64,000 nt of DNA from NCBI GenBank assembly GCA_034190545.1, contig JAXIOF010000039.1:1-64000 (forward strand), written 5' to 3'. The notes below the pieces were generated by a model that was not told the origin of the DNA, searched no databases, and worked only from the letters and a program-made list of their open reading frames with translations. This stretch comes from Candidatus Afararchaeum irisae (lineage in GTDB: Archaea; Halobacteriota; Halobacteria; Halobacteriales; Afararchaeaceae). Within the stretch, counting starts at the first letter, position 1, and each line of letters opens with the position of its first letter. The position numbers and the translations under genes were made by a program. Shown in pieces: positions 37,686-49,284 of this stretch.

Positions 37686-37763
37686 GCCGGTGCTTAGACC
37701 CGACACGACTTAACTTTTTACAGGCTAAGTCCCCTTCCTCAAGGAGTGTTGCGAATCACGTAT

Positions 37764-38136
37764 GAAAATCTCCGATTTTCAACACATCGCAGTCTGCTTT
37801 AGTAGACAAGAAGCGTTAACGAATCGCGTAGCGATTCGTTCGCACATCAGAACGCTTCGCGTTCTGAGGACGTTCAGAAATCAAAGATTTCCGAGCCATC
37901 AAACTCGTAGAGTTTGAGACGTTCGCTAATCTCCGATTAGCGAGCCAACGAGAGCAAAGCTCTCGTAACGTTCGTGAATCTAAGATTCACGGGTCTTCAG
38001 AAATCAGAGATTTCTGTGATGCAGAAAACTCGTAGAGTTTTCTAGCACAAGCAAATCGAAGATTTGCATACGCAGTAGGGAGGGGATACAGTCACAAATT
38101 CTTTGAATTCGTGGGTAGCAAGATCAGAGATCTTGC
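37764..38136. repeat. Array of triloop palindromes (thirteen hairpins)
   Basis: Thirteen short palindromes in 373 bp, almost all perfect stems of 6-10 bp around a 3-base centre. Start-end positions: 37764-37780, 37818-37840, 37847-37867, 37877-37891, 37899-37917, 37924-37942, 37948-37966, 37973-37991, 37998-38016, 38023-38043, 38051-38067, 38093-38113 (one mismatch) and 38118-38136. Many share the core AATC-NNN-GATT; others are AACTC-GTA-GAGTT, GAGAGC-AAA-GCTCTC and GAACGC-TTC-GCGTTC. Loops differ, stems differ, but the architecture is constant. There is no sustained reading frame. Confidence 0.9.
37870..37973. repeat. Tandem 49-bp two-hairpin units bounded by ACGTTC
   Basis: ACGTTC occurs at 37870, 37919 and 37968, exactly 49 bp apart. 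Each 43-bp interior is hairpin - CGAGCCA - hairpin. The stem sequences of the two units differ while the linker GAGCCA and boundaries are kept. This is the clearest copy of the element also seen at 38285 and 49063. Confidence 0.85.
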
Positions 38137-38140
38137 GACA

Positions 38141-38278
38141 GCCGTAAGCTATTTGCGTACTTGGTACTATTTCTAAGCATTGAGTACACAGGGGCACGGT
38201 GGAATTTACGCCTGTGGACACAGAACCTCTGTGGGCTTCACGGCTTATAAGTTCGTGGTGGAAGCAGGAACCTCCTAG
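38141..38278 (+). pseudogene. Decayed TnpB 3' end (IS200/IS605-type)
   Basis: Short peptides typical of haloarchaeal TnpB C-termini can be read in shifting frames: AVSYLR at 38141-38158, RGTVEFTPVDTEPL at 38190-38231, and KFVVEAGTS then stop at 38249-38278. Intervening stops and frame changes show it is broken. The catalytic RuvC-like part is absent. It lies between the hairpin array and an omega-RNA-like right end, which supports the reading. The call rests on recalled family patterns, not on an alignment. Confidence 0.5.
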
Positions 38279-38284
38279 AGGCTT

Positions 38285-38325
38285 CGCAAATCAAAGATTT
38301 GCGAGCCATCAAGCTCTGCTTGATG
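38285..38325. repeat. Two-hairpin palindromic element copy
   Basis: CGCAAATC-AAA-GATTTGCG (38285-38303), then linker GAGCCA overlapping CATCAAGC-TCT-GCTTGATG (38307-38325). Same architecture and linker as the 49-bp units. It lies just after the stop of the TnpB remnant and is partly flanked by CTTC at both sides. Confidence 0.85.
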
Positions 38326-38390
38326 ACTTCCAGAGAAGACCGCTCTGAGGTGAGGCCCAAAGAAGACGGCATCATGGTCAAATCGCTCTG

Positions 38391-38448
38391 GAAGCCCCAT
38401 CCTTAAACTCGCACATTAAGTGCGAGTGGAGGGTGGGGAGGAAGTCAC
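38391..38448 (+). ncRNA. Omega-RNA-like right end of an IS200/IS605 element
   Basis: GAAGCCCCATCC, an inner stem ACTCGCAC-ATTAA-GTGCGAGT, then GGAGGGTGGGGAGGAAGTCAC. The outer arms pair as CCCCATCC with GGAGGGTGGGG. The form (gGAAGCCcc ... stem ... ggGGAGGaaGTCAC) resembles the conserved 3' end of TnpB-associated elements in haloarchaea, where the transcript is the guide-RNA scaffold. Sequence 3' of about 38448 would be the guide. With no intact TnpB here, any activity would need one in trans. Confidence 0.5.
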
Positions 38449-38471
38449 AACTACTACCTGTCCCGCCCGCC

Positions 38472-38957
38472 TTAGTCTTGGCTCTCGTAGCTCTCTTCGT
38501 CTTCCTCTTCGTCTTCTTCGAGAACCTCGTCGACCCTCATCATGGGGTAGCCGTCCTCCTCACTCATGCTTGCCTCGACGACCACACCCTCCTTCTCGAC
38601 TACGAGACTCACATCGACCATCTCTCCCTCTAGCTCGGAGTAGCCGAACCTGTTGGGCTCTATGCCCCTTATCTCTACGCCGACCTCCTCGACGTACCTC
38701 TGGTTCCCGACTGCTTCCTCTATCGCGGTTTCGAGTGACTCCGCCGATCCGTCCGAGATCGGCGTGCCCGTGAACTGGTGGTAGAGAGCGCCCAGCTTTA
38801 TCCCCGCCTCGAAACACGCCTCACAGTCTTCTCTTCCGTCGACCTCGTCTGCGTCATGGCTTTCGTCTTCTACTTCGACCTCGTCTGCGTCTCCGTCTCC
38901 GTCCCGGCTTCGATCCTCTTCTCCGTCTTTGTCTCCCGTCTCAGTCTCGTCGTTCAT
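38472..38957 (-). CDS. mptD: Dihydroneopterin aldolase family protein (MptD)
   Basis: A 161-aa protein. A very acidic, Asp/Glu-rich leader (~45 aa) is followed by the archaeal MptD core: CFEAGIKLGALYHQFTGTPI, LETAIEEAVGNQRYVEEVGV and FGYSELEGEMVDV, then an acidic tail. Archaeal MptD cleaves dihydroneopterin in pterin cofactor synthesis. The leader seems lineage-specific; a later start is possible but no obvious one exists before the core. proS lies upstream on the same strand across a hexamer repeat. Confidence 0.85.
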   Translation of the reverse strand: MNDETETGDKDGEEDRSRDGDGDADEVEVEDESHDADEVDGREDCEACFEAGIKLGALYHQFTGTPISDGSAESLETAIEEAVGNQRYVEEVGVEIRGIEPNRFGYSELEGEMVDVSLVVEKEGVVVEASMSEEDGYPMMRVDEVLEEDEEEDEESYESQD

Positions 38958-47973: not shown

Positions 47974-49284
47974 ATGAGACTAAGCTGTCTCGGGGGTGCC
48001 CGCGAGGTCGGCAGGAGTGCGTTCCTTATCGACGACCTCCTCGTTGACTACGGAATGAAGACGGGCAACCCTCCCGAGTTCCCTCTTTCACGTGCCGACC
48101 CCGAAGAGGTCGTTATATCACACGGACATCTCGACCACGTCGGCGCGCTCCCGACCCTGATGCACGACTACCCATCCGTCCACCAGACACCTCCGACACG
48201 TAACCTCTCGGAGCTACTCGCCAACGACACTCTCAAGATTGCCCAGAGATCCGGGTCGTACAGAGCACCTTTCTCACGCGAGGACGTCTCACGTCTCTCG
48301 GAGGTCTCACGTCTCCACGGTTACGGAGACCGAGAGGGGTTCGAGGCGGCGGGCTTCGACTGTGACTTCCACCACGCTGGACATATACCCGGGAGTGCCT
48401 CGGTCAGGATCGACGACGGCGAGACGAGACTCCTCTACACCGGAGACATAAACACGACACAGACACGTCTCTTAGAAGCCGCTTCGCCGCCGCCTCCTGC
48501 AGACGCCCTAATGATCGAGAGCACCTACTTTAACTACGAACACGAAGACCGCGAGAAGGTTGAGGAAGAGTTCGTGAGGTCGGTGAGGGAGACCCTCCAC
48601 CAGGGCGGCGACGTACTGATACCCGTCTTCGCGATAGGACGCACTCAGGAGATTCTGATGGTGCTCGCCGAAAACGACATACCGTGTTATGTCGACGGAA
48701 TGGGCTGTGACGTCACGACTATACTCCGCGAACATCCCGACTACGTCCGTGATCCCGAGGCTCTCAAGAGAGCGTGGAACCACGCGAGAAAGGTCGACCC
48801 ATCGAAGAGAGACCGAGTTCTCGGAAACGGTGCAGCAGTCGTCACCACGAGCGGTATGCTCACGGGCGGACCCGCTATGTACTACATAAAAGGTCTCTTC
48901 GACAACCCCGCGAACAAGATCTGTCTTACGGGCTACCAGGTCGAGGGAACCCCCGGCAGGCGTGCACTCGATTCGAGCCGCGCTGAGATCGACGGCAAGA
49001 TACTCCCGATTTCGGCACAGGTCGAGCTACACGACTTCTCCGCCCACGCCGATGGCGACGGTACGAAATCTTCCGATTTCGTTAGCCAACGAGAGCAAAG
49101 CTCTCGTGACGGTCTCAAGTCATACGTCGAGAAGGCAGTCGAGAACGGGGTCGAGGAGGTTCTGTGTGTCCACGGCGACGAAGACGACTGTGTCGCCTTC
49201 GCTGAATGGGTCCGCGAGGATATCGGGGTCGAGGCGCACGCGCCGAAGCTCGGTGAAAAGGTCGAGATAGGTAAAATACGATGA
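47974..49284 (+). CDS. Beta-CASP metallo-beta-lactamase ribonuclease
   Basis: A 436-aa MBL/beta-CASP nuclease of the CPSF2/RNase J superfamily, without KH domains. Metal motif II is SHGHLDHVGALP; HHAGHIPGSASV, YTGDINTT, the beta-CASP motifs (VFAIGRTQE; TTSGMLTGGPAMYY; HDFSAHAD) and the final CVHGD are all present. It likely acts on RNA ends. Residues about 364-380 (TKSSDFVSQREQSSRDG) interrupt the expected SAHADGDGLKSYVEK and are encoded by a palindromic insertion (see 49057-49113). All catalytic residues lie outside the insert, so activity may be kept. Confidence 0.88.
   Translation: MRLSCLGGAREVGRSAFLIDDLLVDYGMKTGNPPEFPLSRADPEEVVISHGHLDHVGALPTLMHDYPSVHQTPPTRNLSELLANDTLKIAQRSGSYRAPFSREDVSRLSEVSRLHGYGDREGFEAAGFDCDFHHAGHIPGSASVRIDDGETRLLYTGDINTTQTRLLEAASPPPPADALMIESTYFNYEHEDREKVEEEFVRSVRETLHQGGDVLIPVFAIGRTQEILMVLAENDIPCYVDGMGCDVTTILREHPDYVRDPEALKRAWNHARKVDPSKRDRVLGNGAAVVTTSGMLTGGPAMYYIKGLFDNPANKICLTGYQVEGTPGRRALDSSRAEIDGKILPISAQVELHDFSAHADGDGTKSSDFVSQREQSSRDGLKSYVEKAVENGVEEVLCVHGDEDDCVAFAEWVREDIGVEAHAPKLGEKVEIGKIR
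49057..49113. mobile_element. In-frame palindromic insertion with 6-bp direct repeat
   Basis: GACGGT at 49057-49062 and again at 49108-49113 flanks a 45-bp insert (49063-49107) made of ACGAAATC-TTCC-GATTTCGT, linker TAGCCA, and ACGAGAGC-AAA-GCTCTCGT. Insert plus one repeat is 51 bp, so the host reading frame is preserved with 17 extra codons. Bases 49084-49107 are identical to 37943-37966 in the hairpin array. The direct repeat looks like a target-site duplication. Confidence 0.85.

Follow-up and report, generated by a model that had tools for sequence, protein, structure and literature searches.

Stacked 49-bp double-hairpin units in a haloarchaeal TnpB-type element end: probable non-autonomous mobile elements that insert at CG sites

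The 64-kb stretch of DNA analysed here (the window) belongs to a genome of 1.9 Mb in 117 contigs (G000), the named relatives of which, where found, are haloarchaea; the scan of genome contigs gave just two of them, both distant (51-53% at the CPSF protein). The window holds a hairpin array in the left end of an element of IS200/IS605 (TnpB) type and, further on, a single double-hairpin element within the gene for that CPSF protein (Table 1). The outer sequence of the array region is common to at least five other left ends in the genome, recurring in L020, L022, L026, L028, L021 and L086, and its equivalents adjoin tnpB genes. A search for a TnpB remnant within 37700-38500 gave no convincing match, and the window element may be a relic or a naturally TnpB-less element.

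Table 1. Features of the array region and of the in-frame element in the window.
Feature	Position	Strand	Evidence or detail
Array region, left end of IS200/IS605 (TnpB)-type element	37736-38089	+	blastn; hairpin maps of L020, L021, L022, L026, L028, L086
Remnant half hairpin (TGCGAATC), intact in sister copies	37750-37757		sister comparison
Hairpin TGAAAATC-tcc-GATTTTCA, conserved in sister copies	37763-37781		hairpin scan, sister comparison
Double-hairpin element, CGCACA type	37818-37867		same element, with other stems, in N. pharaonis PL131
Unit 1: ACGTTC + hairpin 37874-37894 + GCCA + hairpin 37899-37917; left hairpin mosaic	37870-37918	+	
Unit 2: ACGTTC + hairpin 37923-37943 + GCCA + hairpin 37948-37966	37919-37967	+	
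Unit 3: ACGTTC + hairpins 37973-37991 and 37998-38016; divergent linker GGTCTT	37968-38021	+	
Two more hairpins (38023-38043, 38051-38067), then ATACGCAGTAGGG, the far side of the empty site	38023-38067		
Further hairpin pair	38093-38139		
Further hairpin pair (TCGCAAATC..., CATCAAGC...)	38284-38325		hairpin scan
Host gene: metallo-beta-lactamase/beta-CASP/RMMBL (CPSF) protein, 436 aa	47974-49284	+	
Double-hairpin element, in frame	49057-49113	+	hairpins 49063-49082, 49089-49107; linker TAGCCA; 51 bp gained

An earlier note on this DNA had described ACGTTC recurring at a 49-bp spacing around two different two-hairpin interiors, and both observations hold: the motif lies at 37870, 37919 and 37968, giving two intervals of exactly 49 bp, and within each 49-bp unit a GCCA linker connects a pair of hairpins whose loops are 3 nt long. 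Unit 1 has the interior TCAGAAATC-aaa-GATTTCCGA / GCCA / TCAAACTC-gta-GAGTTTGA, and that of unit 2 TCGCTAATC-tcc-GATTAGCGA / GCCA / ACGAGAGC-aaa-GCTCTCGT; a single A.C mismatch interrupts the first hairpin of unit 1, and the remaining three are perfect. A structure model which counts both units among its own seeds scores them at 68 and 72 bits, respectively. The 49-bp spacing alone is not diagnostic, because another ACGTTC pair at the same distance (51137 and 51186) encloses ordinary sequence without hairpins, presenting by chance. Perfect hairpins with a stem of at least 7 and a 3-nt loop number 21 in the window versus 7.25 in dinucleotide shuffles, an excess to which 37763-38325 and 49063-49107 contribute most; hairpins with loops of 2, 4, 5 and 6 nt are no more frequent than in the shuffles.

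Hairpin clusters in the first 580 kb of the host genome number 71, versus 3 in block-shuffled sequence, and 1.17 Mb of it contain 93 paired-hairpin clusters, the largest arrays comprising 16 hairpins. The elements measure 45-57 bp and consist of two palindromes, with stems mostly of 7-10 bp, loops almost all of 3 nt (a few of 4) and a short linker (GCCA and variants), the hairpins beginning 0-5 nt from both element ends. The arm base preceding the loop is almost always C, the commonest form being ATC-nnn-GAT, and the most frequent unit pattern is NCGT-TC..AATC-nnn-GATT..GA-GCC(A)-hairpin-RACG. Many arrays border ORFs of 406-452 aa with matches to RNA-guided TnpB (NF040570) and OrfB_IS605/Cas12f1-like_TNB. 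Hairpin pairs within several genes, such as L114 (an NAD synthetase-like gene), L083 and L128, were judged to be chance occurrences. Elements at L024 13466, L033 2211 and L034 11805 occupy the tip of a larger palindrome (e.g., CCTCGGGGTC...GACCCCGAGG), and some bacterial REP dimers likewise lie inside larger palindromes (PMC3733652).

Comparison of sister copies reveals that paralogous left ends differ in the number of units, none, one or two, that they hold at a common ACG. In L026 the CGCACA element, ending in GGACG, runs straight into CAGTAGGG without any unit; L022 and L028 present one ACG followed by other hairpins; L020 has one unit at the site, and the window two. Plasmid PL131 of Natronomonas pharaonis, laid out as AGCGTT(hairpin)CGCACA(hairpin)GGACGCAGTAGGGAGGGGATAC with zero units, carries GGACGCAGTAGGG uninterrupted at the equivalent site. 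The single-ACG site for which the earlier note had proposed to seek a strain is of this kind. Unit 1 is itself a mosaic, with a left arm like that of the unit at L020 9264 and a right part like that at L020 10803, the junction of which left the one mismatch in its hairpin; as these source units are found elsewhere, recombination between arrays has also contributed. A two-unit block is common to the window and L020 (90%), and inside arrays single movers and recombining blocks are not always separable.

Elements of this kind also enter conserved genes in frame. The 6-bp GACGGT duplication reported at 49057 is real, its copies at 49057-49062 and 49108-49113 flanking an insert of exactly 51 bp (17 residues) that is absent from 31/31 relatives inspected. 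A glutamate synthase gene has gained 45 bp (15 residues) relative to 9/9 relatives; in MetRS, within a loop that varies in length, the gain is 16 residues over the relative closest in length and 13-14 over its other near relatives; an array of five hairpins takes up about 50 residues of a Hel308-like helicase; and the TnpB paralogue pair L035/L086 is distinguished by a single 57-bp element. Between related genomes, DNA-level inserts comprise 54 bp at a single CGACGCC in L189 (G009, versus its congener G036 and versus G024), 48 bp in fumarase (G083 versus its congener G092), 63 bp in HMG-CoA reductase (G083 versus G099), which exceeds the bare element, and two inserts of 45 bp in thymidylate kinase (G065 versus G074). 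Inserts at congeneric DNA-level empty sites thus range over 45-63 bp and are all multiples of three, as survival within genes would select; the empty sites derive from paralogues, congeners and other relatives. Archaea evidently tolerate palindromic inserts of 15-21 residues in MetRS, glutamate synthase, thymidylate kinase, fumarase, HMG-CoA reductase and topoisomerase I, and such inserts distort gene models and alignments.

The structure model matches 44 of the 59 genomes of the order, with 97 matches in G000, 39 in G009 and 37 in G018, and outside the order its matches are confined to family f24 (G065, G074, G083, G092, G099). In f24 the pairs, mostly with a 2-nt linker, lie in mevalonate kinase-, F420 ligase-, CobN-, topoisomerase I- and fumarase-like genes, the conserved genes with inserts being those for topoisomerase I, HMG-CoA reductase, CobN, fumarase and F420 ligase. 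Loci L220-L239 (G065, G083, G099) come from AT-rich f24 genomes of 1.2-1.8 Mb, which represent another family in the phylum with double-hairpin inserts of its own. Viral contigs yielded no exact match to a unit pattern.

Left flanks carry NCG, and right ends in haloarchaea are nearly always ACG, whatever the left side. All 19 of the aligned GCCA units end in RACG on the right and begin with CGT on the left, under a selection that itself required CG; in three haloarchaeal genomes scored without that selection, CGT stands at 47-64% of cluster ends versus a background of 15-19%, and in the AT-rich family at 12% versus 6%. Isolated copies are flanked by direct repeats to a greater extent than shuffled left/right pairs in G018 (P 0.016) and in G000 (P 0.007, for a set that includes a few chance hairpin pairs), and none of 2000 shuffles reached the match observed in the AT-rich family; the flank match in G009 was not above chance by this comparison (P 0.11). 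Clear duplications are GACGGT (CPSF), AGACG (MetRS) and GACAGC (L201), a match outside ACG also occurs as AAG in L226, and the thymidylate kinase and glutamate synthase inserts occupy clean sites at which no duplication was found. Repeats range in length from 0-1 to 6 bp, with 9 in one tnpB pair. The earlier note had postulated repeated insertion of variant elements at one 6-bp target; the repeated insertion stands, at a regenerated ACG(T), on the evidence of the zero, one or two units, PL131 and the copy at 49057, but a uniform 6-bp duplication was rejected, as flank repeats vary and the right end is nearly fixed as ACG. Target duplication is fairly stated to be short and variable, with a strong ACG preference.

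The covariation of stems that the note had also raised is borne out by compensatory changes: among the 19 aligned units, 12 of 17 pairs are altered on both sides, the lack of one-sided changes being biased by the choice of these units for strict pairing. G000 (L034) and G009 (L194) have a tnpB copy in common that reads TCGAAGC/GCTTCGA in one and TCCAAGC/GCTTGGA in the other, a double change which alters two residues yet keeps the hairpin. Across 132 distinct model matches, in a model-fitted alignment that leans towards structure, 94% of ungapped cells are Watson-Crick, and the mismatches include 23 G.T and 22 A.C. Selection on RNA structure would favour G.U. Where arms and flanks are the same and the loop differs (13 groups), the loops are reverse complements of each other in 8/13 groups (chance 5.2%, P about 5e-8). 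The lack of a G.U preference in stem covariation, together with loop inversion, suggests that the hairpin acts as DNA, in single-stranded or cruciform form, and inverted loops, in palindromes this small, are in keeping with template switching or with the processing of cruciforms.

The units stand as discrete insertions against empty sites, prefer particular sites, stack, change in stem and loop, and occur order-wide. Very probably, in our judgement, they are non-autonomous mobile double-hairpin elements that insert at CG sites, stack, and exchange units by recombination. Bounded by CGTY...RACG, such elements would enter sites that contain CG, with a preference for (G)ACG(T), and as each insertion would leave ACG on both sides, the site would be renewed and elements would pile up, with arrays also swapping units through recombination. 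An enzyme supplied in trans may recognise the DNA hairpin, and replication across the hairpin might flip loops and rewrite one arm from the other, so that stems would diversify yet stay paired. A bolder extension, which we advance as speculation and think rather unlikely, is that heritable identity resides in the DNA hairpin itself: if replication flips loops and copies each arm from its partner, sequence could drift freely while the double-hairpin form and ACG ends persist, and the elements could spread across archaeal orders and into conserved genes with no transposase of their own, possibly by replication template switching at hairpins.

Among other explanations, the units might be minimal IS200/IS605 derivatives, resembling PATEs or REPINs, in which TnpA recognises single-stranded hairpins and cuts after (N)CG; the right-end ACG would then be the element's own cleavage site, and there would be no true target duplication. 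This is a genuine possibility, albeit one that we lean against. The host genome has three TnpA genes, making TnpA the obvious candidate for a mobilising enzyme there, and two of these (L172 1412-1919 and L173 1406-1898, on G000:C31 and C5) lie between double hairpins and are thus candidate parts of the mobilising system. The position of arrays in the ends of TnpB elements, the nearly fixed RACG right ends and NCG left ends, and the clean inserts in thymidylate kinase and glutamate synthase are likewise in keeping with it, as is the suggestion that the 52-bp terminal-only PATEs of Haloquadratum may be mobile (PMC3119063, in excerpt). However, left and right flanks match above shuffled pairs in three of four genome sets, non-ACG cases included, although IS605-type elements and PATEs make no duplication (PMC3119063, in excerpt), and the hairpins lie at the very ends of the elements. 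Further, in a search that covered the Y1 transposase family (PF01797), TnpA was absent from several nearly complete genomes with model matches (G022, G028, G043, G049), and its presence had no clear link with element number across genomes.

Arrays could alternatively grow mainly by homologous recombination and gene conversion between IS ends, with insertion a rare event. The mosaic unit 1 and the two-unit block found in both the window and L020 are what such exchange would produce, but the dozens of single insertions in unrelated genes go unexplained, and we consider it unlikely as the main process. The other option in the earlier note, in which a single 49-bp unit was duplicated in tandem on the spot and its stems then changed in compensation, would account for the equal spacing, the common GCCA linker and stems that covary at homologous positions; it is nevertheless scarcely credible, since neighbouring units differ in both hairpins, near-identical units lie elsewhere (L020 10803-10900), paralogues hold zero to two units, and single copies occur in unrelated genes; at most, it might apply to single steps within an array. 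Very improbable, too, is that the array works as folded RNA, such as a segment of a TnpB guide RNA or a 5' leader, with stems under RNA selection. Many arrays flank tnpB and could be transcribed, and their stems do covary, yet an Rfam covariance-model search of the whole window gave 0 matches at the gathering threshold, G.U is not favoured over A.C, the same hairpins lie inside unrelated protein genes, and loops invert rather than being conserved.

Taking the units as mobile double-hairpin elements, their nearest analogues in form appear to be the head-head dimers of CGTC-tagged REPs, which include Rickettsia RPE-4 and RPE-6; no transposase for CGTC repeats came to light in the survey of 2013 (Di Nocera et al. 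2013, PMC3733652). Both are short palindromes, mostly dimers, tagged on the outside (CGTC outside being GACG at the other end), with heterogeneous stems (8-9 bp there, mostly 7-10 bp here), no known dedicated transposase, copies inside genes and in frame, and some members within larger palindromes. They differ in that loops are 4-5 nt in the REPs versus 3 nt in the archaeal elements, and that the latter have a left tag of CGTT or CGTC and large arrays in TnpB-element ends; archaea are not among the organisms reported for CGTC REPs, the word occurring in the reference list only (PMC3733652). The PATEs and SMRs of Haloquadratum walsbyi, among them SMR-A of about 110 bp with inverted repeats, are also short, transposase-free haloarchaeal repeats tied to IS605-type elements, the ends of which are preferred by other mobile elements (PMC3119063, in excerpt). 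The 52-bp terminal-only PATEs equal the archaeal elements in size (PMC3119063, in excerpt), and near-terminal palindromes are common to both, but PATEs and SMRs make no target duplication; the elements described here have both above-chance flank matches, in three of four genome sets, and clean sites without duplication. In the excerpted text of that account (PMC3119063), no mention was found, for PATEs or SMRs, of units with two hairpins, of in-frame insertion into genes or of inverted loops. The fungal mitochondrial double-hairpin elements of Allomyces and Schizosaccharomyces (PMC10085805, in excerpt, citing Paquin 2000) similarly comprise two adjacent hairpins, dispersed and thought mobile, mostly intergenic with some in genes (rns, rnl); they are, however, mitochondrial and GC-rich and, in the excerpt of PMC10085805, are not described in protein genes; the resemblance would appear to be in form only. 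REPINs, mobilised by RAYT, are comparable as paired palindromes forming one mobile unit with structure-based recognition, but have a GTAG tag and by definition a RAYT partner, unlike the CGTY...RACG ends of the archaeal elements (PMC3116915, in excerpt).

We found no earlier description of such an archaeal counterpart in the openly accessible literature, and an earlier account may exist among subscription papers, which lay outside the search. The archaeal counterpart bears on the means by which CGTC-type palindromes and fungal double-hairpin elements move, as it offers empty sites, congeneric comparisons and arrays that record insertions, together with two measurable signatures of DNA-hairpin processing, namely loop inversion and covariation without G.U bias. 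Several minor observations accompany these results. An element of about 48 bp lies in frame within an IS-transposase-like ORF (L106 17849-17891), representing insertion into another mobile element. One locus in G009 (L187, G009:C1 216500-219500) appears, from its sequence, to resemble a tRNA gene with repeated 3' parts, with hairpin pairs nearby, and two separate in-frame elements (L196 1549 and 1673, G009:C5) lie within one open frame of 235 aa.
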